Source: Acidobacteriota bacterium (GTDB taxonomy: Bacteria; Acidobacteriota; Vicinamibacteria; Vicinamibacterales; UBA2999). Taken from it: 43,807 nucleotides of DNA. Within the stretch, counting starts at the first letter, position 1, and the number at the start of each line of letters is the position of its first letter. The position numbers and the translations under genes were made by a program. Under the pieces are notes generated by a model that saw only the letters and a list, made by a program, of their open reading frames with translations, was not told the DNA's origin and searched no databases. The DNA is taken from positions 4,992 to 48,798 of the forward strand of contig JAKFXY010000020.1 in assembly GCA_021731165.1 (NCBI GenBank), given 5' to 3'. Shown piece after piece: positions 88-27,139 of the stretch.

Positions 88-182
88 TACTCTTCGGCGG
101 CATCGCACTGATCGCCTCGATCATCGTGCTGCTCGACTGGCTCGGACGCCGCAAGGACCGGCAGTCGAAGCTCAGTTCGTAA
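72..182 (+). CDS. Small single-pass membrane protein (36 aa)
   Basis: This gene is too short for the ORF track. ATG at 72 follows a good ribosome site (GGAAGGAG, 58-65) and opens a 36-residue frame ending with TAA at 180-182. Residues 4-22 form one hydrophobic helix (ALILFGGIALIASIIVLLDW), followed by a strongly basic tail (GRRKDRQSK), so the C-terminus should be cytoplasmic by the positive-inside rule. Its coupling to the truncated membrane gene upstream suggests a small accessory subunit of a transporter or oxidase. I do not recognise the family. Its last 11 bases overlap the 3' end of the convergent kinase gene. Confidence 0.55.
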   Translation: MENALILFGGIALIASIIVLLDWLGRRKDRQSKLSS

Positions 183-2892
183 GTCCTGCTGTCCAGTTGA
201 CGAGGACGGTGAGGGGTGCTTGGGTCCTCTCACCCGCCGGTGTCAGGACCAGAAAGCGCCGGCCGTCGGGAGAGACGCCGTACTGATCGTAGGAGCTGTT
301 CACGCTGAGCGTCGTACGGAAGAGCGCCTTCGGGGTGCCAGGCACGATACTCATCCCCGCGTTTGTCCCGGCGCTTCCGGCAGTGGTCCCGGCGGTGGTC
401 CCGACAGTGAGATCGACAGCCGTCATCGTCCCATCCAGCGCCAGGTAGAAGAGCTCTTGTCCGTCGGCACGCCATTTCGGTTGCGCGCCTCCGGAGGTGG
501 ACACGCGTACACGCTGTCCCGGCCCTGGAAACGGCTGAACGTAGATCTCGACCCGACCCGAATCCGACGAGCTGTACGCCAGCCAGCGCCCATCGGGAGA
601 TACCTGCGGTTCGTTTGCTCCGCCTGTGCGAGTGAGTTGGATTGGCGTGCCCGCAGCGGTCGACGTGCCACCAGACCGTGCATCAGCGGGCTGTGACTCT
701 CCAGGCAGCGGGAGTGCCCAAAGGCTCCCTCTGGCGCTGTAGACGAGATGTCGCCCATCACGTGACCAGTCCTCCAGCACCAGTCCTCCACCGAGTCCCG
801 AGATGAACGCGGCCTCGTCAGTGCCGTTCGCCGCCTTGCGGACGATCGATCCCTCTCCCACCGCGTAGTAGGCGAGCTCTCGCCCATCCGGAGACCAGAC
901 CGGGTCACTCCTGTCCGCCGCGAGGCGGGTGGGTGTTCCCCGCTCGGCGTCGATCACCCAGATCTCCGGTTGCGAGCGGGTGGTGCGCTGGGCAGCCACG
1001 TACGTCCCATCGTGAGAGATGACCATCTGCTGATATGGCGCCGCTTCTCCCAATGGCCGCAGACGCGCACCCGCGCGGTCGAACCAGGTCATCTGCACGG
1101 CGTCCGCCGGCGTCGATCGAAAGGAGACGACTCCGGCCGGCGACACGGCAAATGCGGTCGCCCCGCCCGTGCTCGACGTCACGTCTTCCGCGATCGACAC
1201 GACATCCCCTGACAACTGGCCTCGAGCGAGGTCGAATGGCTGTGCCAGCAAGACCGATTGCCTCACGAAGAGCAAGTATCCCGGCGGCGCAAAGAACGCC
1301 CCTGAATCCGCGGGCCCAAGCGGTGTCGCCTCGGGAGAATCCAGGGCGCCCAGAAACAGCGTGCCTGCATTGGCACCGACGTTGAGATAGACGAAGCGGC
1401 GGCCGTCCGGCAGAAAGCGCGGATACCGATGCGACGCGTCCTTGCGATTCACGTCCAAGGTCGTGGCCGGCGCGGGCTCGCCGCCCGCGGCGGACACACG
1501 CAGCACGCCACCGTCAGATCGCCCGAAGAGGATGACGCCATCGGCGTTCCAACTGCCACCGACAGCGGACGCGGCGTCGCACAGCGCCAAGGCCGATCCG
1601 CCGGACGGTGAAATCCGCTTGAGCTTGCCATCGGCGAAGAAGCCGATGAACCGGCCGTCGGGCGACCAGAACGGAGAGGTCGCGCCTTCAGTACCAGCCA
1701 GTGGCCTTGCCTCGACCGCGTCAAGCGATCGCACCCACAGCTGCGCGGGAAGACCAGGCTTGACCGCCACGAACACCATATGACGCCCATCGGCGGAAAT
1801 GGCCTGCGCGGGAGACCCAAAGGCGACCGGGAAAGCCGTACCTGCCGGCGCGGCAATGGTGAACCGAATTACCCGAGGGTCAGGCGGCGCCGGCCGCAGG
1901 TGCGGACTGATCAAAGCGGCCGCCGCAACCGCCGTGGCAAGCCCCGCGACAGACCAGGGGGCCAGCCGCATGCGTCTCGGTCGAGCAGGAGCCGCCGAGA
2001 CGGTCGCGGTGGGACTGGAGGCGCCCGAAGGTCCTTCGAGCGCAAACGCGAGATCGTGGGTGGACTGAAAGCGCGCTGCCGGATTCTTCTCGAGGCAGCG
2101 CTCGACGACACGCACGACGGCTGCCGGTACGTCGTTCCTCATCGACGCGAGCGGCGGCGGATCGTCCTTCACGATCGCCATCATCGTGTCCATCGCGGTA
2201 TCGCCCCGGAACGCCCGCTGGCCCGACAACATCTCGTAGAGCACCGCGCCAAAGGCGAAGATGTCGGCCCGGTGATCGGCCACCAGCCCCCGCACCTGTT
2301 CCGGCGCCATGTAGCCGACGGTGCCGAGCACCATTCCGGCCAGCGTGCCGGGCGGGCTCGTCGGCAGCATGCTGGCCCCAACGGCAGCCGGCTCGGTCTC
2401 TGTCAGCTTCGCGAGGCCGAAGTCGAGGATCTTGACCCGCCCGTCGGCGGTGATGAACACGTTGTCCGGCTTCAGATCGCGGTGGACGATGCCCTTGTCG
2501 TGCGCGGCGGCGAGGCCATGAGCAATCTGGACGGCGTACTCGAGCGTCTTCCGCAGCGGCAGCGGTGCGCCGGCCAGTTCCGTGCCCAGCGTCCCCCCCT
2601 CGAGCAACTCGGAAACGATGTAGGGAGACGGAGCGTCGGAACCTGGCGCCTGGTACGCGCCGATATCGTAGACCGCGAGGATGTTGGGGTGATTGAGCAC
2701 CGCGGCGGCGCGCGCTTCCTGTTCGAAACGTACCAGCCGCTCAGGATCGGCGGCGGCCGCTCCTGGCAGCACCTTGATGGCGACATCGCGGCTCAGCCGG
2801 AGATCGCGGGCACGGTACACTTCGCCCATCGCCCCAGCGCCCACGAGCGCCGCGACTTCGTAGGAACCGAGCCGCGTTCCCGCTGCCAGCAT
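172..2892 (-). CDS. Membrane Ser/Thr protein kinase with C-terminal TolB/PD40 propeller
   Basis: This is a 906-residue Hanks-type kinase fused to an extracytoplasmic beta-propeller. The kinase domain (about 10-285) has the glycine loop GAGAMGEV, Lys40 in VAIKVLP, the catalytic loop HRDLKPDN (about 137-144), DFG (157-159) and APE (196-198), so it should be active. One transmembrane helix follows (about 311-329, APWSVAGLATAVAAAALI). The rest holds PD40-type repeats such as WSPDGRFIGFF, SPDGRWLAYSSSD and VSPDGRRFLV. This architecture is typical of Acidobacteriota. The ORF track starts 68 codons upstream, but MLAAGTRLGSYEV is the usual family start and the longer version would cross the divergent gene. 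Substrate and propeller ligand are unknown. Confidence 0.93.
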   Translation of the reverse strand: MLAAGTRLGSYEVAALVGAGAMGEVYRARDLRLSRDVAIKVLPGAAAADPERLVRFEQEARAAAVLNHPNILAVYDIGAYQAPGSDAPSPYIVSELLEGGTLGTELAGAPLPLRKTLEYAVQIAHGLAAAHDKGIVHRDLKPDNVFITADGRVKILDFGLAKLTETEPAAVGASMLPTSPPGTLAGMVLGTVGYMAPEQVRGLVADHRADIFAFGAVLYEMLSGQRAFRGDTAMDTMMAIVKDDPPPLASMRNDVPAAVVRVVERCLEKNPAARFQSTHDLAFALEGPSGASSPTATVSAAPARPRRMRLAPWSVAGLATAVAAAALISPHLRPAPPDPRVIRFTIAAPAGTAFPVAFGSPAQAISADGRHMVFVAVKPGLPAQLWVRSLDAVEARPLAGTEGATSPFWSPDGRFIGFFADGKLKRISPSGGSALALCDAASAVGGSWNADGVILFGRSDGGVLRVSAAGGEPAPATTLDVNRKDASHRYPRFLPDGRRFVYLNVGANAGTLFLGALDSPEATPLGPADSGAFFAPPGYLLFVRQSVLLAQPFDLARGQLSGDVVSIAEDVTSSTGGATAFAVSPAGVVSFRSTPADAVQMTWFDRAGARLRPLGEAAPYQQMVISHDGTYVAAQRTTRSQPEIWVIDAERGTPTRLAADRSDPVWSPDGRELAYYAVGEGSIVRKAANGTDEAAFISGLGGGLVLEDWSRDGRHLVYSARGSLWALPLPGESQPADARSGGTSTAAGTPIQLTRTGGANEPQVSPDGRWLAYSSSDSGRVEIYVQPFPGPGQRVRVSTSGGAQPKWRADGQELFYLALDGTMTAVDLTVGTTAGTTAGSAGTNAGMSIVPGTPKALFRTTLSVNSSYDQYGVSPDGRRFLVLTPAGERTQAPLTVLVNWTAGLTN

Positions 2893-2902
2893 CGAGTGGC
2901 GA

Positions 2903-2908
2903 ATTATA
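2903..2908 (-). promoter_or_regulatory. -10 box (TATAAT) for the Ser/Thr kinase gene
   Basis: A perfect TATAAT lies on the minus strand 10 bases before the kinase ATG, which would give a nearly leaderless mRNA. No good -35 element is seen. It lies in the 28-bp gap between divergent genes, so the kinase promoter overlaps the start of the oxidoreductase gene. Confidence 0.45.
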
Positions 2909-2920
2909 TCGTGGCGTAAA

Positions 2921-4954
2921 ATGTCTCGTCCGATGAAGCGAGCCAAGACCTTCACCCGCGAGCATATCGTCGCCACGGCATGTCCGCTTGATTGTCCCGA
3001 CTCCTGCAGCCTCGATGTCACCGTCCAGAACGGCAAAATCACCGAGGTAGACGGTTCAAGGCTCAACCCGGTCACGGGCGGATATATCTGCGCCAAAGTC
3101 CGCCGGTTCCCGGAACGAGTCTACGGGCGCGACAGGCTGCTCTACCCGGCGGTGCGAATTGGGCCCAAGGGGTCGGCGCGATTCGAACGGGTCTCGTGGG
3201 ACACGGTGCTCGACCTTGTCGCCACTCGGATGCGGGAGGCGCGCGATCGGTTCGGCGGAGAGTCGATCCTCCCCTATTCGTACGGCGGCTCCAACGGCCT
3301 GCTGACGCAGGATACGAGCGACGCACTGCTCTTCCGTCGGCTCGGTGCCTCTCGGCTGGCGCGAACGCTTTGTGCCGCACCGACCGGCGCAGCCAACATG
3401 GCCATGTACGGCAAGATGCCGTCGGTCACCTACGAGGACTTTCCCGAAGCCCGGCTGATCATTCTCTGGGGCGTCAACCCATCCGCGTCGGGCATTCACC
3501 TAGTGCCGTACATCCGCGAGGCACGGAAGCGCGGCGCCACGCTCGTGGTCGTCGATCCGCGCACCACCCCGTTGGCGAAGCAGGCCGATATTCACCTCGC
3601 CGTGCGGCCTGGCACGGATCTCCCCGTCGCGCTCGCCATTCATCGGCACCTCTTCGAGGAGGGGCTCGCGGACGAAGCGTTCCTCTCGGCCCACACGCGC
3701 GGCGCGGACATGCTTCGCGAACGGGCGCGGCCGTGGACCTTCGATCGGGCCGCGCAGGAAGCCGGCATCGACGCTGGAGTGCTGCAACAGGTCGCGGAGA
3801 TGTACGCCGCGGCGTCTCCGGCGCTCATTCGCTGCGGGTGGGGACAGGAGAGGAACCGCAACGGCGGCAACGCTTCCCTCGCCATTCTGGGGCTGCCGGC
3901 CGTTGGAGGAAAGTTCGGCGTACGCGGCGGCGGCTACGCGATGAGCAACTCCGCGTCGTGGGGAATCACGCGGCCCTGGGTCGGCCCGGAACAAGCGACG
4001 CGGCTCGTGAACATGAACCAGCTCGGGCGCGCACTGCTCGACTACACGGACCCGCCGGTCTCGGTCCTGTTCGTCTACAACTGCAATCCGGCCGTCACCG
4101 TGCCGCACCAGCAGCGCGTGCTCGAGGGGCTTGCCCGCGAGGATCTCTTCACGGTGGTGTTCGAGCAGGTGATGACCGACACCGCGCGCTACGCCGACGT
4201 CATCCTTCCCAACACGACCTTCCTCGAGGGCTACGACATCGCCAAGGCCTACGGGCCGCTCACGATGCGACTCGCCAAGCCTGCCATTGAGCCGATTGGT
4301 GAATCGCGTTCGAACGCGGACGTCTTCGGCGACCTGCTCACGAAGCTTGGCCTGGACGACCCCTCCGATCCGAAAGGCGAGATCGAGGAGATGTTGAACA
4401 TCTTTGCGCGGCTGCCGGCGTCGATTGGCACCGAGCTTAGCGAGTCGGGTGCCGCCGCGCCGCCGTTCGAGGGACGGCCGGTGCAGTTCGGCAACTGTTG
4501 GCCGCTGACGCCCGATGCCAAGGCTGATCTCTTTCCACGGCACCTGGACTCCCTGGCACCCGCGGGGTTGTACGGCTACCAGCCCGACCCTGGCACCCCT
4601 ATGTACCCGCTGGCACTCATCTCGCCGGCCAGCAATCGCACCATCAGCTCAACACTCGCGGAGCTGCCGAGACCCGAGGTCCGGCTGTTGATGCATCCAG
4701 ACGATGCCGCGGCACGCGGGCTGACGGATGGCGACCTCGTGCGCATCTACAACGCGTTGGGCGAGGTGCGCTGCAGGGTCACGATCGGTGACACGATCCG
4801 GCCGGGCACGGTGTCGTTGCCCAAGGGGCTCTGGCGGAAACACACGGCCAACGGCTACACCGGCACGTCGCTCGTCCCTGACACGCTCACCGACCTGGGA
4901 GGAGGCGCCTGCTTCAACGACGCGCGGGCGCAAGTGGAAAGACTGGCGAACTAG
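2921..4954 (+). CDS. Molybdopterin-dependent oxidoreductase (YoaE/YyaE-like)
   Basis: This 677-residue protein belongs to the DMSO reductase superfamily and should bind a bis-molybdopterin cofactor and one [4Fe-4S] cluster. The N-terminal cluster motif is CPLDCPDSC, with a fourth Cys in GGYICAKVRRFPERVY. The catalytic domain includes ILPYSYGGSNG, WGVNPSASG and VVDPRTTPLAKQADIHLAVRPGTD. The C-terminal dinucleotide-binding domain starts around YPLALISPASNRTISST. Length and the CPLDCPDxC motif match the stand-alone B. subtilis YoaE/YyaE group. There is no Tat signal, so it should be cytoplasmic. The substrate is unknown, and the metal ligand is not obvious by eye. No electron-transfer subunit is adjacent. 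ATG at 2933 is an alternative start. Confidence 0.9.
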   Translation: MSRPMKRAKTFTREHIVATACPLDCPDSCSLDVTVQNGKITEVDGSRLNPVTGGYICAKVRRFPERVYGRDRLLYPAVRIGPKGSARFERVSWDTVLDLVATRMREARDRFGGESILPYSYGGSNGLLTQDTSDALLFRRLGASRLARTLCAAPTGAANMAMYGKMPSVTYEDFPEARLIILWGVNPSASGIHLVPYIREARKRGATLVVVDPRTTPLAKQADIHLAVRPGTDLPVALAIHRHLFEEGLADEAFLSAHTRGADMLRERARPWTFDRAAQEAGIDAGVLQQVAEMYAAASPALIRCGWGQERNRNGGNASLAILGLPAVGGKFGVRGGGYAMSNSASWGITRPWVGPEQATRLVNMNQLGRALLDYTDPPVSVLFVYNCNPAVTVPHQQRVLEGLAREDLFTVVFEQVMTDTARYADVILPNTTFLEGYDIAKAYGPLTMRLAKPAIEPIGESRSNADVFGDLLTKLGLDDPSDPKGEIEEMLNIFARLPASIGTELSESGAAAPPFEGRPVQFGNCWPLTPDAKADLFPRHLDSLAPAGLYGYQPDPGTPMYPLALISPASNRTISSTLAELPRPEVRLLMHPDDAAARGLTDGDLVRIYNALGEVRCRVTIGDTIRPGTVSLPKGLWRKHTANGYTGTSLVPDTLTDLGGGACFNDARAQVERLAN

Positions 4955-20052: not shown

Positions 20053-20739
20053 CTACAACCCTTCTCCGGTGACCTTCGGCTGATCCAGCAGGGCGATGAT
20101 CTCCTTCTCGAATTGCTCGCGAGTCCCGATCCCGGAGTGCTTCTTCGCGATCCGGGCGTCTCGGCCGATGATGACCGATACCGGGATGCCCCACAGCGGA
20201 CCGAACGCGTCCTGCACATCCTCGCGCCCATTGCCGACGAGCACCGGGTAGTTGATCTTGTACTGGGCAGCATAGGGCCTCAGCTTTTCGACCGGGTCGT
20301 CTACCGAGAAACCCAGAACCACCAGGTCGTCGGCGTACTTCGTTTGAAGCTCGACCAGAGCGGGAATCTCCGCCCGGCACGGCCCGCACCACGTGGCCCA
20401 GAAGTTCAAGAGGATGATCTTTCCCTTGAAGGACGCCAGCTTCACACTCACGCCGTTCATGTCCTTGAGCGTGAAGTTGAGCGGCGCCTCCTTCCCGGTG
20501 ACGGCCGCGTCGTTGGGATCGCTTGTCGCGATGGCCAGCCCATCCGCCGGCGGCGGCGGCGCGTCCTCCTCCACGCCCGAACCGGGGGAGAGCATCATGA
20601 GCAGGATGATGGCCACGGCCACGATGCCCATCGCGGCAAAAGCGCCGGCGCGGCTCATTCGCCGTTCTGGGAGGGGCTCGGGCGGCTCCGGCGAATCACC
20701 CCGGCTGCCATTCGCGAATCCACGATCGCTATTCGCCAT
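20053..20739 (-). CDS. TlpA/ResA-like membrane-anchored thioredoxin
   Basis: This 228-residue protein has a short cytoplasmic N-terminus, one transmembrane helix (about 31-50, GAFAAMGIVAVAIILLMML), a Pro-rich spacer, and an extracytoplasmic thioredoxin fold. The fold has WATWCGPCRAEIP (CGPC active site) and cis-Pro loop WGIPVSV. Such proteins reduce disulfides outside the membrane, often for cytochrome c or CuA assembly. AGGAGG lies 13 bases before ATG 20739. However, the first 11 codons (MANSDRGFANG) are encoded by a heptad repeat, so ATG at 20658 (MSRAGAFAAM) may be the ancestral start. It follows the anti-sigma gene by 4 bp. Confidence 0.9.
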   Translation of the reverse strand: MANSDRGFANGSRGDSPEPPEPLPERRMSRAGAFAAMGIVAVAIILLMMLSPGSGVEEDAPPPPADGLAIATSDPNDAAVTGKEAPLNFTLKDMNGVSVKLASFKGKIILLNFWATWCGPCRAEIPALVELQTKYADDLVVLGFSVDDPVEKLRPYAAQYKINYPVLVGNGREDVQDAFGPLWGIPVSVIIGRDARIAKKHSGIGTREQFEKEIIALLDQPKVTGEGL

Positions 20740-20741
20740 TG
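20707..20741. repeat. Degenerate 7-bp tandem repeat, 5 units, at the TlpA gene start
   Basis: Five contiguous heptads on the plus strand read GCCATTC, GCGAATC, CACGATC, GCTATTC, GCCATTG. One more GCGAATC lies at 20691-20697. The array covers the TlpA start codon and its first 11 codons and abuts the anti-sigma stop. Confidence 0.65.
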
Positions 20742-20743
20742 CT

Positions 20744-21523
20744 CTAATGCGCCTCCTGCCGTACGTAGCTGGCTACATTGGCGAGGTCCCCGCCGGTCGC
20801 CGAGGATACCATCACGTAGGTGTTCGACCCGCGCGACCAAATACGAGCGCGATGACCGAGCGATGTAACGTCGGCATCGGCTCGGGCCACACCTTCAAGG
20901 ATGAAGAGCGAGACATCCTGGCCGTGCGCTCGGTACATCACGTGGGGAATTCGGCCGTCGGCATAGAGGCACCTTCGCGCGCCAACCAATCCTAACCCTA
21001 CGGGCCCCGAAGAGGGCGGCACGTGGAGATCCCAGCCGTAGCGCGCCCGCAGCATGGCTTCAACCTGCCCGGCATCGGCCGTGGCGCCCTGTGGCGGGAA
21101 ACCGCGGAAGCACTTCATGTGATCCGCGGTGAGCTGTGCCGCAAGCAGGGTATCGGAATGTTGTGTGGCGACCGCCACCATCGCGGCAGCGGTGAGGGCG
21201 ACAAACAGCACGGCCAGCCCGACGGGCGCGAAACGAGAGATCCAACCGGTGGCGTGCACGAGCGCCAGCCGGTGCTCGCGCGCCAGCGCCTCGCACCGGG
21301 TCCGTAGTCCAGGCGGCAGGGTGGTCTCGCTGTCGGAGGAACGCAGCCGCTGGGCGCAGCCACGCAGCACGGTGCGTCCGGCCTGGCCATCCGCGGCCGC
21401 GCCACGGCACGGCGGACAGGCCGCCAGGTGATCGTCAACGTGCCCGCGCTCATCCGGCGGCAGGTTACCGTCGACGTATTGCGTTATCCGCTCGGCGACT
21501 CGCCGACAGTCCTCTATCGCCAC
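20744..21523 (-). CDS. Membrane anti-sigma factor with zinc-binding HxxxCxxC motif
   Basis: This 259-residue anti-sigma factor has an N-terminal zf-HC2 / ZAS domain (CRRVAERITQYVDGNLPPDERGHVDDHLAACPPC; HLAACPPC gives His-x3-Cys-x2-Cys). A transmembrane helix follows (FAPVGLAVLFVALTAAAMVAVAT) and then an outside domain with HMKCFRGFPP and further Cys. It lies directly downstream of the ECF sigma gene, its presumed target. The track start at 21595 overlaps the sigma gene and reads through a heptad repeat. GTG at 21523, with AGAGG about 7 bases upstream, fits the family start (VAIEDCRRVAE) better. Confidence 0.87.
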   Translation of the reverse strand: MAIEDCRRVAERITQYVDGNLPPDERGHVDDHLAACPPCRGAAADGQAGRTVLRGCAQRLRSSDSETTLPPGLRTRCEALAREHRLALVHATGWISRFAPVGLAVLFVALTAAAMVAVATQHSDTLLAAQLTADHMKCFRGFPPQGATADAGQVEAMLRARYGWDLHVPPSSGPVGLGLVGARRCLYADGRIPHVMYRAHGQDVSLFILEGVARADADVTSLGHRARIWSRGSNTYVMVSSATGGDLANVASYVRQEAH

Positions 21524-21525
21524 GG

Positions 21526-21560
21526 TAGACCTCTGCCCTCTGACGTTGGACCCCTGCCTG
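21526..21560. repeat. Degenerate 7-bp tandem repeat, 5 units, between sigma and anti-sigma genes
   Basis: Plus-strand units TAGACCT, CTGCCCT, CTGACGT, TGGACCC and CTGCCTG approximate CTGACCT. The last two match at only 4 of 7 positions. They lie in the 49-bp gap between the sigma stop and the anti-sigma GTG. Confidence 0.45.
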
Positions 21561-21572
21561 ACTCGGAACGGT

Positions 21573-22187
21573 TCATCGTCGCCCTCCTGCCTCAACGGTG
21601 GCCCGAGCCATGCCGCGTCCTTCGCGCAGCCGCTCGAACAGGAGACGGCGGCCGCGCGAAATCCTCGACATCACCGTGCCAAGCGGCACGCCGAGCACTT
21701 CGGCGATCTCTCCGTAGGAGAACTCTTCAACGTCGCGCATCCAGACCGCCTCGCGGAACGCCTCGGGCAGCGCGTCCAGCGCAGCCTGCAGATCGACGTC
21801 GAGCGACTGTCGCAGCAGGATGCGCTCGGGCGTATCGAGTGCGGCGGGGCCGTCCGGCCGCGTGGCGGCCTGCTCCACACGGTCGCTGTCCACTTCCACC
21901 GTGTCCCGCGCGCGCCCCCGGCGTCGATTCCGCCACGTGTTGTGCAGAATGGCGTAGAGCCAGGCTCGCAGGTTGGTGCCCCGCTCGAAACGATTGGCAA
22001 AGCGGAGCGCCTTCACCACCGTATCCTGGACCAGGTCCTCCGCGTCCGCGCGGTTGCGCGTCAGTCGGAGCGACGTGGCGTATAGCGGTTCCAGAAAGCC
22101 GAGCACCTCCGACGCGAAAGCGTCCGCGCGAATCGGATCGGATGGCGGTCGGCGTCCAAGCATCAAGCGCTCGGGTCCTTGGGGCAT
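21573..22187 (-). CDS. ECF-type RNA polymerase sigma factor
   Basis: This 204-residue group 4 sigma factor has region 2 (FLEPLYATSLRLTRNRADAEDLVQDTVVKAL...NLRAWLYAILHNTWRN), which melts the -10 element. Region 4 (AALDALPEAFREAVWMRDVEEFSYGEIAEVLGVPLGTVMSRISRGRRLL) provides the helix-turn-helix for the -35. It probably guides transcription of its own operon with the ZAS anti-sigma factor, TlpA and the 74-residue protein. Two start codons are possible: ATG 22187 and ATG 22163 (MLGRRPPSD), and conservation should begin after both. Confidence 0.93.
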   Translation of the reverse strand: MPQGPERLMLGRRPPSDPIRADAFASEVLGFLEPLYATSLRLTRNRADAEDLVQDTVVKALRFANRFERGTNLRAWLYAILHNTWRNRRRGRARDTVEVDSDRVEQAATRPDGPAALDTPERILLRQSLDVDLQAALDALPEAFREAVWMRDVEEFSYGEIAEVLGVPLGTVMSRISRGRRLLFERLREGRGMARATVEAGGRR

Positions 22188-22367: not shown

Positions 22368-22470
22368 CGGCCTCCCATGGGCGCGGTGAATACCGCGGCC
22401 GGAATGACCGTCAGACCAGAGTGCCGGTGGTAATAAAACCCCTCGGCCCGTCTGCTAGGAGTAGAACGAC

Positions 22471-25400
22471 ATGAGCGACTGCACACGGCGCGGGACATGG
22501 CTCCCACTCGCTGTCGCCGCGCTGGCGGCCGCCATCGCGTCCGCACCGCTGCCGGCCTCGGCACAAACGCCCTATGTTCCCTACTTCGGGAAGAACCAGA
22601 TCCGCTACGACAACTTCCGGTGGCAGATCTACACCACGGATCATTTCGAGATCTACTACTACCCCGAGACCGAACAGCACCTGGAGCGCGTGGCCAGCTA
22701 TGCCGAGAGTGCCTACCAGCACATCAGCTCGGAGTTGCGTCACGATCTGGCCTTCAAGGTCCCGCTCATCGTCTTCAAGACGAGCAGCGAGTTCCAGACG
22801 CAGAACGTCATCCCGGGCGCGGCACAGGAGGGTGTCGGCGCCTTCGCCGAGCCGACTCGCCAGCGTATCGTGCTGCCGATTGACGATCCGCCCGATCTCC
22901 TCTACCGCCTGATCGTCCACGAGCTCACGCACCAGTTCGAGTTCGACATCATCCCGACCTCCCTCATCCGCCGCAGCGTGCCGCTGTGGGTCAACGAAGG
23001 GCTGTCCGACTACATGACGGGCATCTGGCAGCCGCTCGACCTGGCGTCGATCCGCGACGCCGCCGTGGCCGACATCATCCCGAAGATGAGCCGGATGGAC
23101 GAATACGGCAATTTCACGAACGTCCGCATGGTCTACAACCTGGGCCACGCGGTGTTCGAGTTCATCGAGTCACGCTGGGGCAAGGAAGGACTGCGGCAGT
23201 ATCTGTTCGCGCTGCGCAAGGCGGTGATCGGCGGTGGCGAGGACGCCTACATGGAGGCGCTGCGCCTCACGCCAGAGGAGTTCGACCAGCAGTTCGAGAA
23301 GTATCTGAAGGACCGCTTCAAGCCGTTCCGCGACAAGGAGCGGCCGTCGGACTACGGGCGCAACCTCGCACCGGACCCCGAGAAGTCGGCGTTCACGGCG
23401 GCGGTGTCGGTCGAACCGTCGCCGTCCGGAGATCTCATGGCCGTGGCCACCTTCAATCGGAAGGACCGCGAGCTCGACTTCGTGCTCGCCTCGGCCAAGG
23501 ACGGCTCGGTCATCCGCAACCTGACCAACGGCTTCGATCAGGACAAGGGCTTCGAGTTCATCGTGCAGCCTGGCGGCCGCTTCAATACGGTGCCCTGGAT
23601 GTCCTGGTCGCCGACCGGAGACCGCCTCGCCTACTTCGTGCGCACGGAGAAGTCGCGCACGCTCATCATGCAGAACGTCCTCAACCGCGATATCGAACAA
23701 CGGATTGTGATGCGGTCCGTGGACGATCCCGAGTCGCCGGACATCTCACCCGACGGACGCCAGGTGGCGTTCGCAGCGCTGCGGAGCGGCGTCGGCGACA
23801 TCTTCACTGTCAATCTCCAGAGCGGAGAGGTGACGAACCTGACGAAGGACAACTTCGGCGACTCGGGCCCGACCTGGTCGCCCGACGGCCGATCCATCGT
23901 CTACATCGCGCGCGTCAGCGGCAACGAGAAGCTGTTCCGCATCGACGTGGCCAGCGGCGTCAAGACGCAGCTCACCTTCGGCACGCACGACGACAGCGCC
24001 GCGCAGTTCATCGACGCCGACACGCTCGTGTTCTCGTCAACCGCCACCGACCCGAGCAAGTCGATCGAACCCGATGTCGCACGCAACGGCAACATCTACA
24101 ACATCTGGACGCTCGGCCTGAAGAACGGTGAGCTGCGCCAGTACACGGATGTCGCGGTGAGCAACGTGTCTCCGGTGCTGCTCCGCGAGGGCGGCAGTTC
24201 CTCGCGCATCGCGTTCGTCAGCACGTACAAGGGCGAGTACGAACTGCACACCCTCGACCGGAAGGAGGCCATCGTCACGGCGGCGTCGGCCGACTTCGGC
24301 GCGCCGGGCCCCATCATCGACTTCCAGGCTCCGCTCGCACACATGCTGCTGCCCGACAAGAAACGGAAGAAGGGATCGTTCGAGAAGATGTTCCTCGACG
24401 GACGCCCACCGGTGAACGTCGGCGTCACGAGCGGCGGCGACGTCTTTGGCGGTACCGCGGTCGCATTCAGCGACGTGCTGGGCGACAAGCAATTCAACCT
24501 GTACGCCGCGTCGATTTCGCAGTACCGCACTCTGGCGCTCTCGTACTCGAACATCGCGCGCCGCTTCAACTACATGTTCCAGGGCTTCTCGCAGACGTCG
24601 TTCTTCTACGGCAACCTCGAGAACGTCTTCTACGACCCGATTTACAGCGGCCAGATCGACAGGGACTTCGCGCTGGCGACACGCACCATCCGGGGTGGAA
24701 GCGCGTTCGGCATCTGGCCGTTCAACCGGTACCGGCGAATCGAGGTGTCTGGCGGTGTCATGCAGTACCGCGAGTCATTCAACGATCCGAGTCTCCAGCA
24801 GTACTCACAGGGGTACCAGCAGGAGCAGTTCGGCCGCCAGCTCTTCCAGTCTGGCACCTACGTGCCGTTGGGCGTCTCGCTCGTGCAGGAGACCACGGTG
24901 TTCCGCGAGTTCGGACCGCTCGCCGGCAACACGATGCGGCTTGCCTACGAGGTGTCGCCGAAGATCGGCAACACGCTCTCACGGCAGACAACCGACGTCG
25001 ATGCCAGGTACTACCTCCGTCTCGGCGGGTCAGGCCTGCTCGCGCTGCGGGCGAAGGGCTTCAAGAGCTGGGGCAGCTCCCCCGACTTCATGTACTTCGG
25101 GGGCAACTCGGAGCTGCGGGGGTACGACTACTTGTCCCTCATCGGATCGAAGGCCGGGTTCCTGAACGCCGAGCTGCGCTTTCCGCTCATCGAAGCCATG
25201 CTGACCCCGGTCGGGGTGCTTGGCGGAATTCGAGGCGTGCTGTTCGCCAACATGGGCGGAGGGAGCTTCGAGGGCCAGAAGGGTGCCGAGGGCGGGAACT
25301 ATAAGTGGTTCTCCACCTCGGCGGTTCGGTACACACCCGTCGACAGCTACACCACCGATGCGCTGGGGAACCAGATCGCGGTTCCGGGTACGCCGGTCAC

Positions 25401-25605
25401 TGTGTCGGGCCTTCGCCTCGTGGACGCCCGCGCCTCGTACGGCGTGGGGCTCGAGACCTTTGCGCTCGGCTTCCCCATCCATTTTGACTGGTCGTGGAAG
25501 ACGCTCCTGAACAAGGATTGGGAGGATGCGCTGTTCGCCGCCTACGGCGGAAGCAAAGAGTTCCGGAAACCGAAGTTCGCCGTCTGGATCGGCTACGACT
25601 TCTGA
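22471..25605 (+). CDS. Secreted gluzincin metallopeptidase fused to TolB propeller and outer-membrane barrel
   Basis: This 1044-residue exported protein has three parts. The signal peptide ends at PASA-Q (about residue 31). A peptidase-MA-like domain follows (about 50-330) with the zinc motif HELTH (150-154) and a downstream Glu in NEGLSDY (about 176). Residues about 340-640 are PD40 propeller repeats (WSPTGDRLAYFVRTE, ISPDGRQVAFAALRSG, WSPDGRSIVYIARVSG). The last 400 residues look like a Omp85/surface-antigen-type beta-barrel (GGNSELRGYDYLSLIGSKAGFLNAELRFPLIEAM) ending in the terminal aromatic motif WIGYDF. It should therefore be an outer-membrane-anchored protease. The substrate is unknown. 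Confidence 0.88.
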   Translation: MSDCTRRGTWLPLAVAALAAAIASAPLPASAQTPYVPYFGKNQIRYDNFRWQIYTTDHFEIYYYPETEQHLERVASYAESAYQHISSELRHDLAFKVPLIVFKTSSEFQTQNVIPGAAQEGVGAFAEPTRQRIVLPIDDPPDLLYRLIVHELTHQFEFDIIPTSLIRRSVPLWVNEGLSDYMTGIWQPLDLASIRDAAVADIIPKMSRMDEYGNFTNVRMVYNLGHAVFEFIESRWGKEGLRQYLFALRKAVIGGGEDAYMEALRLTPEEFDQQFEKYLKDRFKPFRDKERPSDYGRNLAPDPEKSAFTAAVSVEPSPSGDLMAVATFNRKDRELDFVLASAKDGSVIRNLTNGFDQDKGFEFIVQPGGRFNTVPWMSWSPTGDRLAYFVRTEKSRTLIMQNVLNRDIEQRIVMRSVDDPESPDISPDGRQVAFAALRSGVGDIFTVNLQSGEVTNLTKDNFGDSGPTWSPDGRSIVYIARVSGNEKLFRIDVASGVKTQLTFGTHDDSAAQFIDADTLVFSSTATDPSKSIEPDVARNGNIYNIWTLGLKNGELRQYTDVAVSNVSPVLLREGGSSSRIAFVSTYKGEYELHTLDRKEAIVTAASADFGAPGPIIDFQAPLAHMLLPDKKRKKGSFEKMFLDGRPPVNVGVTSGGDVFGGTAVAFSDVLGDKQFNLYAASISQYRTLALSYSNIARRFNYMFQGFSQTSFFYGNLENVFYDPIYSGQIDRDFALATRTIRGGSAFGIWPFNRYRRIEVSGGVMQYRESFNDPSLQQYSQGYQQEQFGRQLFQSGTYVPLGVSLVQETTVFREFGPLAGNTMRLAYEVSPKIGNTLSRQTTDVDARYYLRLGGSGLLALRAKGFKSWGSSPDFMYFGGNSELRGYDYLSLIGSKAGFLNAELRFPLIEAMLTPVGVLGGIRGVLFANMGGGSFEGQKGAEGGNYKWFSTSAVRYTPVDSYTTDALGNQIAVPGTPVTVSGLRLVDARASYGVGLETFALGFPIHFDWSWKTLLNKDWEDALFAAYGGSKEFRKPKFAVWIGYDF

Positions 25606-25609
25606 TCGT

Positions 25610-27139
25610 CTAGCTCTTCTGCAGCCGCAGTTCGCTCCGGGCCAGATCCATCGTCACCCGGTAGCCGCTCAGAAACTTGTGGCCGATGATCCCGCCGAGC
25701 TGGAAGCCGAGCAGCGCGCTTGGCGCCCGGAGGTTCAGGACGACGAGCGGAAAATTACGGTACTCGATTCGATCGAAATCCAGGCTCTGACCCGCGAGAA
25801 GGAACGCATCGCGATCCCATCCCGACGTGCCGTACACCTTGAGCGGGATGCGCCGATACGCCGCCACCTCGGCTGAGGGCGCCGTGAGCTGGTCCGCCAG
25901 ATCAGTGCTGATTGAAATGACCTCGCCACCGGTATCGACGACGAAATAGGCCGGCTTGGTGGAGTTGACCAGCCCGCGCACCATCGCGAGGCGATGAACA
26001 CGCATTGGCAGACGGAAGTCCGCGCCGACGTCCGGCATGTCATGGCCGATCGTCAGGAGACGCTGCTTGTAGTCGATCGCCATCGACATCCCGAGGGAGA
26101 GCGGCGAGAAGCTCTCCCCCTCCCGCTTGGGGATTCCGCGCAGCGCCGGGTTCTTGATGAGCACGGGCAGGTTGCGCACCTGGAGCGTCCCGATGTCGAG
26201 CGAGTTGACTCGCGCCAACTGGAGCCCACGTAGACCGACTTCACCAACGCCGGCGCTGAGAGTGTAGGTGATCGGCTGCACACCCTGTCTTTGGGCGGTC
26301 TCGCGCGAGACAACCGTTTCCTCGGAGCCGGTGTCGAGCACGAAATCCTGCCTGCTGCCGCCGTTGACACGAGCCTCGACGACGATCTTGTCCTTGACCA
26401 GCCGGAACGGCACCGTGTGCAGCGAGCGAAGATCCTCGGGATCGACGTCTACTGGAATCTTTCCCTGGAAGGCTTCGAGAAAACGTACCTGGGCGCGCGA
26501 CCAGGCGGCTTTGTCGCTCCGGTCCTTGTTCGGCAGCAGGTTGATGAAGTTCGTATAGGCGTTGGCGGCTTCGTCGAAGCGGCCGAGCCGCTCGTAGATG
26601 TCTCCAATCGTGGCGTGAATCTCGCCATCTCTGGGCGCCGCCGCGACGGCCGTCAGCGCCTCGTTCAGCGCCTGGTCGAGCTGGCTGCGCGTGGCGTGGG
26701 AACGCGCCACGCCGAAGCGCGCGCGCGACGAACCGGGGTTCCGGGCCAGCACGTCGCGGTAGATGGCGTCTGCCTCGTCGAAGAGACCCGACGACCACAG
26801 CGAATCACCGTAAAGGGTGATCGCTTCCGAATCCGCGGGGGCATCCTTCCTGAGGGTCTCGGCTTCCAGTCGCGCCGTGTCGAACCGGGCGAGCCTCAGC
26901 GCGGTCTTGACCTTCCCCTTCCGCGCGCGAAGAGCGAGCGCCCGGTCCTCGGCGTGCGTGGCCTTGTCGAACGCCTGGAACGCCTCGGGATAGCGGGTTT
27001 CCTCGGAGAACAGATTGCCAAGTTGGAGTTGGACCTCCGCATCGCCGGAGGTAATCGCGTCCGAGGCACGCAGCACCAGCGTGCATGCTGCCGCAATCGC
27101 GGCGGTGAACACGGCGAACCGGAGCGTGCTACGCGTCAT
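25610..27139 (-). CDS. TPR protein with two retropepsin-like aspartyl protease domains
   Basis: This 509-residue protein starts with a signal-like segment (RFAVFTAAIAAACTLVLRASDA). TPR-type helical repeats follow (about 30-210: LGNLFSEETRYPEAFQAFDKA, GDIYERLGRFDEAANAYTNFINLLP). Two aspartyl protease halves come next. The first has FVLDTGSEETVVS and the second has FVVDTGGEVISIS, each followed by hydrophobic and Gly-rich strands (LGGIIGHKFLSGYRVTMDL). Two DTG/S motifs in one chain can build a complete active site. The track ORF of 915 residues is wrong: its first 406 residues are antisense to the histidine kinase and ferredoxin. ATG at 27139 is the start. Its stop lies 4 bp from that of the convergent peptidase gene. 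Confidence 0.87.
   Translation of the reverse strand: MTRSTLRFAVFTAAIAAACTLVLRASDAITSGDAEVQLQLGNLFSEETRYPEAFQAFDKATHAEDRALALRARKGKVKTALRLARFDTARLEAETLRKDAPADSEAITLYGDSLWSSGLFDEADAIYRDVLARNPGSSRARFGVARSHATRSQLDQALNEALTAVAAAPRDGEIHATIGDIYERLGRFDEAANAYTNFINLLPNKDRSDKAAWSRAQVRFLEAFQGKIPVDVDPEDLRSLHTVPFRLVKDKIVVEARVNGGSRQDFVLDTGSEETVVSRETAQRQGVQPITYTLSAGVGEVGLRGLQLARVNSLDIGTLQVRNLPVLIKNPALRGIPKREGESFSPLSLGMSMAIDYKQRLLTIGHDMPDVGADFRLPMRVHRLAMVRGLVNSTKPAYFVVDTGGEVISISTDLADQLTAPSAEVAAYRRIPLKVYGTSGWDRDAFLLAGQSLDFDRIEYRNFPLVVLNLRAPSALLGFQLGGIIGHKFLSGYRVTMDLARSELRLQKS

Follow-up and report, generated by a model that had tools for sequence, protein, structure and literature searches.

A single gene in the analysed window (the whole stretch of 43,807 nucleotides, from an Acidobacteriota bacterium of the order Vicinamibacterales) joins a signal peptide, a zinc metallopeptidase domain, a six-bladed TolB-like propeller and an Omp85-type barrel in one chain, and across the phylum it recurs together with genes for a TPR protein and a lipoprotein. 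This phylum-wide three-gene module (TPR protein, lipoprotein, peptidase-barrel protein) is new here; a search of the open-access literature found no paper on the peptidase-propeller-Omp85 combination or on the three-gene module. The function that we propose, with a confidence somewhat short of even, is that of an accessory Omp85 protein which, facing the periplasm, would provide a station where outer-membrane clients are assembled and quality-controlled.

Domain architecture and topology

The features of the gene and its product are as follows.

22457-22461, + strand: ribosome-binding site AGGAG, with the ATG 9 bases on (sequence)
22471-25605, + strand: complete gene for peptidase, propeller and Omp85 barrel, 1044 aa and a stop codon (frame, homologues)
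22471-22563, + strand: Sec signal peptide without a lipobox, residues 1-31 (sequence; the model shows an N-terminal helix and a tail of low confidence)
22606-23364, + strand: gluzincin (MA-clan, M1-like) metallopeptidase domain, residues 46-298 (Peptidase_MA_2, 3cia profile match, conservation)
22918-22932, + strand: HELTH zinc motif, residues 150-154, with H150, E151 and H154 (conservation)
22996-22998, + strand: E176, third zinc ligand, in NEGLSDY (175-181) (invariant)
23134-23136, + strand: Y222, matching the tyrosine in the Y-x-K-G motif of M1 peptidases (invariant; 3cia alignment)
23383-24288, + strand: six-bladed TolB-like (PD40) beta-propeller, residues about 305-606 (PD40, TolB matches, model strands)
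24412-25602, + strand: predicted 16-stranded Omp85-type outer-membrane barrel, residues about 648-1044 (model strands, fold search, profiles, PF01103 in the family)
25114-25125, + strand: L6-loop motif LRGY, residues 882-885, an Omp85 signature (conservation; alignment with BamA of the same genome)

An earlier note on this DNA had read from the letters one polypeptide with a signal peptide, a HELTH...NEGLSDY zinc peptidase, PD40 propeller repeats and a C-terminal barrel ending in an aromatic residue. Every one of these elements was recovered, all of them within a single frame that starts with ATG and runs over 1044 codons with no internal stop. Homologues of this main family were present in 39 of 40 relatives, with identities of 57-79%, and nearly all of them were full-length proteins in one long open frame. 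This excludes a frameshift joining two genes, the objection that the note had raised beforehand against its own reading, and any other gene-fusion artefact was rejected on the same grounds. Upstream of the gene, a sigma-70-like promoter match was no better than chance.

The signal peptide ends in an AxA-type cleavage site (..PLPASA, before Q). Behind it, the peptidase is the best conserved of the three domains, with a mean identity of 0.67 vs 0.57 for the other two. H150, E151, H154, E176 and Y222 were invariant in 111 of 111 homologues with letters at these positions and in all 15 proteins of a sister family (15/15), and the HExxH motif, the downstream glutamate ligand and the catalytic tyrosine of gluzincins of the MA clan are all present. 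Family assignment was less straightforward: in Pfam, Peptidase_MA_2 (PF13485) scored 23.9 bits (E 4e-5) vs a curated cut-off of 32.4, with a match in 20 of 28 family members, and the domain is therefore named by its motif and fold class rather than filed in PF13485. A weak profile match (E 0.026) to the cold-active M1 aminopeptidase 3cia spanned HExxH, E and Y-x-x-G and placed the tyrosine on Y222; the AlphaFold2 model predicted an alpha/beta fold for the domain. A degenerate peptidase was rejected, every catalytic residue being invariant, and the conservation of the five residues in 111 homologues and 15 sister proteins makes it likely that the protein is an active enzyme.

The propeller gave a PD40 match of 1.2e-10 in Pfam. 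TolB chains were matched at 8e-19, or 1.6e-27 with a profile, TolB was recovered by the fold search (E 1e-11), and six four-stranded blades were seen in the predicted AlphaFold2 model.

For the C-terminal part, the same model (pLDDT 83, pTM 0.78, from an input alignment of 28 sequences) contained 16 strands from residue 648 to the terminal ...WIGYDF, which would close into a barrel. The fold search returned BamA (2.2e-9), Sam50 (1.1e-8) and TamA (2.7e-8), and profile matches to BamA were obtained at 2e-4 to 3e-4. PF01103 had no match in this protein at E<=1; it was found in 3 of 28 family members (best 7e-13) and exceeded its cut-off in sister proteins (up to 37 bits vs 24). As in BamA, the LRGY motif follows the 11th strand and precedes the 12th; it aligned with LRGYD of the BamA encoded in the same genome; R883 was kept in 107 of the 109 homologues with letters there and G884 in 101 of 109. 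A POTRA domain was found in the chain neither by the Pfam scan nor in the AlphaFold2 model. On the evidence of the fold search, the BamA profile matches, PF01103 in relatives and the L6 RGY motif, the barrel is a member of the Omp85 superfamily (BamA/TamA/Sam50) without POTRA domains, and a location in the outer membrane after Sec export is strongly supported by homology. The outer-membrane barrel foreseen in the earlier note was borne out; its Omp85 identity had been missed there, and a merely anchoring barrel was rejected in view of the Omp85 fold and the L6 motif.

The part of an Omp85 protein that precedes strand 1 is periplasmic. By the topology of the family, the peptidase and the propeller are expected to face the periplasm, unless they are translocated as has been proposed for PlpD. 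As Omp85 topology places both domains below the membrane, the surface-exposed processing machine of the earlier note was not supported.

Distribution and partner genes

The source genome is an assembly of 3.0 Mb. Homologues of the gene were detected in 99 of 199 genomes sampled across the Acidobacteriota, and when genome contigs were scanned, the best 80 matches listed were nearly all from this phylum. Since almost every relative has the main family, usually in one copy per genome, the gene behaves as a housekeeping gene. The sister family (L166-L180), at about 30% identity, has the same peptidase-propeller-Omp85 order and keeps all catalytic residues; some genomes have the sister family alone, mostly without the partner lipoprotein. 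Additionally, a 633-aa protein encoded on the Salinibacter ruber plasmid pSR116 (L131:3908-5809) has the peptidase and the propeller with no barrel match, so this pair of domains can be found in the absence of an Omp85 barrel.

Outside the Vicinamibacterales, the position directly upstream on the same strand is taken by a lipoprotein gene (about 220 codons, in many cases encoding a lipobox), itself preceded by a small secreted TPR gene. The lipoprotein gene was adjacent, upstream and in the same orientation in 69 of 71 genomes; the two exceptions (G107 and G199) have only a low-identity, sister-like homologue of the peptidase-barrel gene. The TPR gene was found upstream in all 18 linked loci that were inspected, as well as at all 6 Vicinamibacterales sites inspected, and at one locus (L144) TPR protein and lipoprotein form a single frame. 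In the Vicinamibacterales, the source genome included, the TPR-lipoprotein pair is unlinked from the peptidase-barrel gene yet retained, a separation that counts against the proposed role. In the source genome the pair occupies C8:34044-35157 (L157:9045-10158), between topA/dprA and rplU/obg, and the lipoprotein was kept in 25 of 26 relatives.

Independently of linkage, the lipoprotein profile was positive in 88 sampled genomes besides the window's own, all 88 of which have the peptidase-Omp85 gene, and in none of the 100 sampled genomes that do not have it; the Fisher value for this co-occurrence (2e-45) takes no account of common descent and cannot serve as a probability. Ten genomes have the peptidase-barrel gene alone, and because five of them show only a sister-like homologue, the lipoprotein appears to follow the main family.

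The predicted model of the lipoprotein (pLDDT 84) resembles HpaA, GNA1162, PelC, CsgG, FlgT and LpoB. With the GNA1162/PelC/CsgG/LpoB/FlgT-M fold it shares the predicted fold and, in many members, a lipobox, but sequence identity to these fold relatives is about 10%, no Pfam match exceeded its cut-off, and the lipoprotein is tied to a peptidase-Omp85 gene. Given the observed linkage, the TPR protein and the lipoprotein are expected to be periplasmic partners that would contact the peptidase-barrel protein. Their co-occurrence with it across the phylum renders doubtful the self-contained design that the earlier note had ascribed to the single chain.

Known envelope systems and proposed role

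The source genome also encodes BamA with POTRA repeats (C6), a TamA-TamB pair (C8; TamB was recognised by its size and its location next to TamA rather than by family searching), TolB, BamD-like proteins and several M48 peptidases. A substitute for a missing BamA, TolB or TamA was therefore rejected, all three being present, and with its own BamA, BamD, TamA-TamB and TolB in the genome, the peptidase-barrel protein represents an additional system and not a replacement of BAM. A third Omp85 protein was also observed in this genome (C20, L160:2996-5170; 725 aa), the N-terminal about 480 residues of which had no Pfam match.

Of the kinds described so far, the WD40-Omp85 subfamily comes closest; a 2014 paper likened it to a BamA-BamB fusion (Heinz & Lithgow 2014, PMC4104836), and the comparison made here draws on that published description. 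Both the subfamily and the present protein have a TolB-like WD40 propeller N-terminal to an Omp85 barrel and no POTRA domain; however, the text of PMC4104836 mentions no peptidase or partner genes, whereas here an intact gluzincin precedes the propeller and two genes track the protein. The 'Metallo' class of the same paper is defined by PF00149, a domain other than the gluzincin peptidase. PlpD likewise has an enzyme domain, of patatin type, fused to an Omp85 barrel, and translocation of that domain to the surface has been suggested (PMC4104836), but it combines a lipase with one POTRA domain, in contrast to a metallopeptidase and a propeller with no patatin or POTRA match. BepA of E. coli, a periplasmic zinc peptidase of family M48, acts on LptD at BAM (PMC8423444) and so offers an HExxH zinc peptidase at an Omp85 barrel together with TPR; the periplasmic site of the present protein would be a further likeness. 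Here, however, the peptidase is MA_2/M1-like with no PF01435 match, the TPR is encoded by a separate gene, and the peptidase is covalently joined to the barrel. A recent Flavobacterium BAM structure illustrates how strongly other phyla can differ (PMC12611786). With BamA and TamA the protein shares the 16-strand barrel fold and the L6 RGY motif, but the Pfam scan found no POTRA repeats, which both BamA and TamA of the same genome carry, and a peptidase and a propeller stand in their place. With TolB of the Tol-Pal system it shares the six-bladed PD40 propeller; it differs in having no TolB_N match and a TIGR02800 score of 82 bits vs a cut-off of 343, and TolB of the same genome is a separate protein.

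Outer-membrane biogenesis is known chiefly from E. coli, in which the corresponding elements are spread over BamA (barrel), BamB (propeller), BepA (metallopeptidase and TPR) and BamD (TPR). In effect, one chain with two helpers would combine elements of these four proteins. In the proposed mechanism, Sec would export the chain and the 16-strand Omp85 barrel would insert in the outer membrane, the propeller below it docking partners or clients. The TPR protein, the lipoprotein and the propeller would take up a client on the periplasmic side, and the barrel may then help it into or across the membrane; the gluzincin domain would cut clients that are stalled or that need trimming or maturation. 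BepA at BAM provides the precedent, and the quality-control role is proposed by analogy. It is possible that the peptidase is a precise processing enzyme, and the barrel could be a translocase, not an insertase. More tentatively, the module may constitute a second machine of the Acidobacteriota for outer-membrane assembly and quality control, distinct and inherited vertically, in which a TPR protein, a CsgG/PelC-like lipoprotein and a covalent peptidase-propeller-Omp85 protein would couple proteolysis to insertion or translocation. With a peptidase covalently joined to an Omp85 barrel, the coupling of assembly and proteolytic quality control, known from the contact of separate BepA and BAM, would become directly testable in one polypeptide, and the module offers three defined genes as a target in a large phylum that has received little study.

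Another explanation, unlikely on the present data, can be based on a self-contained secretion or maturation device, the barrel exporting one or few clients in the manner of TpsB or PlpD and the periplasmic peptidase trimming them before or during export. Translocases, FhaC for example, are known among the Omp85/TpsB barrels (PMC4104836), the conservation of the peptidase suits a specific reaction, and PelC-like lipoproteins, relatives of the partner model, belong to export systems. Against this, no conserved client gene was found beside the peptidase-barrel gene across the classes examined, where wide recurrence was confined to the TPR and lipoprotein genes, and a gene present almost universally in the order differs from the TpsB translocases, whose distribution is described as scattered (PMC4104836).

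A surface protease, in which the peptidase and the propeller would pass through the barrel and act on external proteins, is very improbable, even though the signal peptide, the barrel and the intact active site would agree with it and a precedent has been claimed for the patatin domain of PlpD (PMC4104836). Passage through the barrel would involve two folded domains of about 550 residues, the Omp85 topology implies a periplasmic N-terminus, and the chain is constantly accompanied by a TPR protein and a lipoprotein of periplasmic type. Just as little probability is given to a lipoprotein or polysaccharide export gate like PelB-PelC, made of the barrel, a PelC-like lipoprotein and the TPR protein with the propeller as plug and the peptidase as regulator: the partner fold is like that of the PelC and CsgG ring formers and the TPR protein belongs to the same gene cluster, but PelB barrels are, to our knowledge, not Omp85 barrels, and glycosyltransferase or polymer genes do not recur nearby.

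Gene neighbourhood in the Vicinamibacterales

In the window, the peptidase-barrel gene is flanked by the following genes.

20053-22187, - strand: group of ECF sigma factor, zf-HC2 anti-sigma factor and TlpA-like thioredoxin, divergent from the peptidase-barrel gene
20744-21595, - strand: anti-sigma factor with zf-HC2 domain (domain search)
21573-22187, - strand: divergent ECF sigma factor gene (Sigma70_r2/r4)
25610-27118, - strand: retropepsin-like aspartyl protease with TPR repeats, convergent

An operon with these neighbours was rejected, their orientation being divergent or convergent and the phylum-wide partners lying elsewhere in the genome. The arrangement was conserved within the order. 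Of 61 Vicinamibacterales loci whose flank was long enough, 44 had an ECF sigma homologue no more than 1.5 kb upstream; an anti-sigma homologue lay within the same distance in 36 loci and a TlpA homologue somewhere upstream in 56. On the downstream side, the gene for the TPR-aspartyl protease was retained in 45 of the 56 loci that had flanking sequence there. The conserved divergent sigma/anti-sigma pair would fit control by envelope stress. Elsewhere in the window, a frame of 974 codons (172-3096, - strand) displayed a weak propeller-like match to the peptidase-barrel protein.
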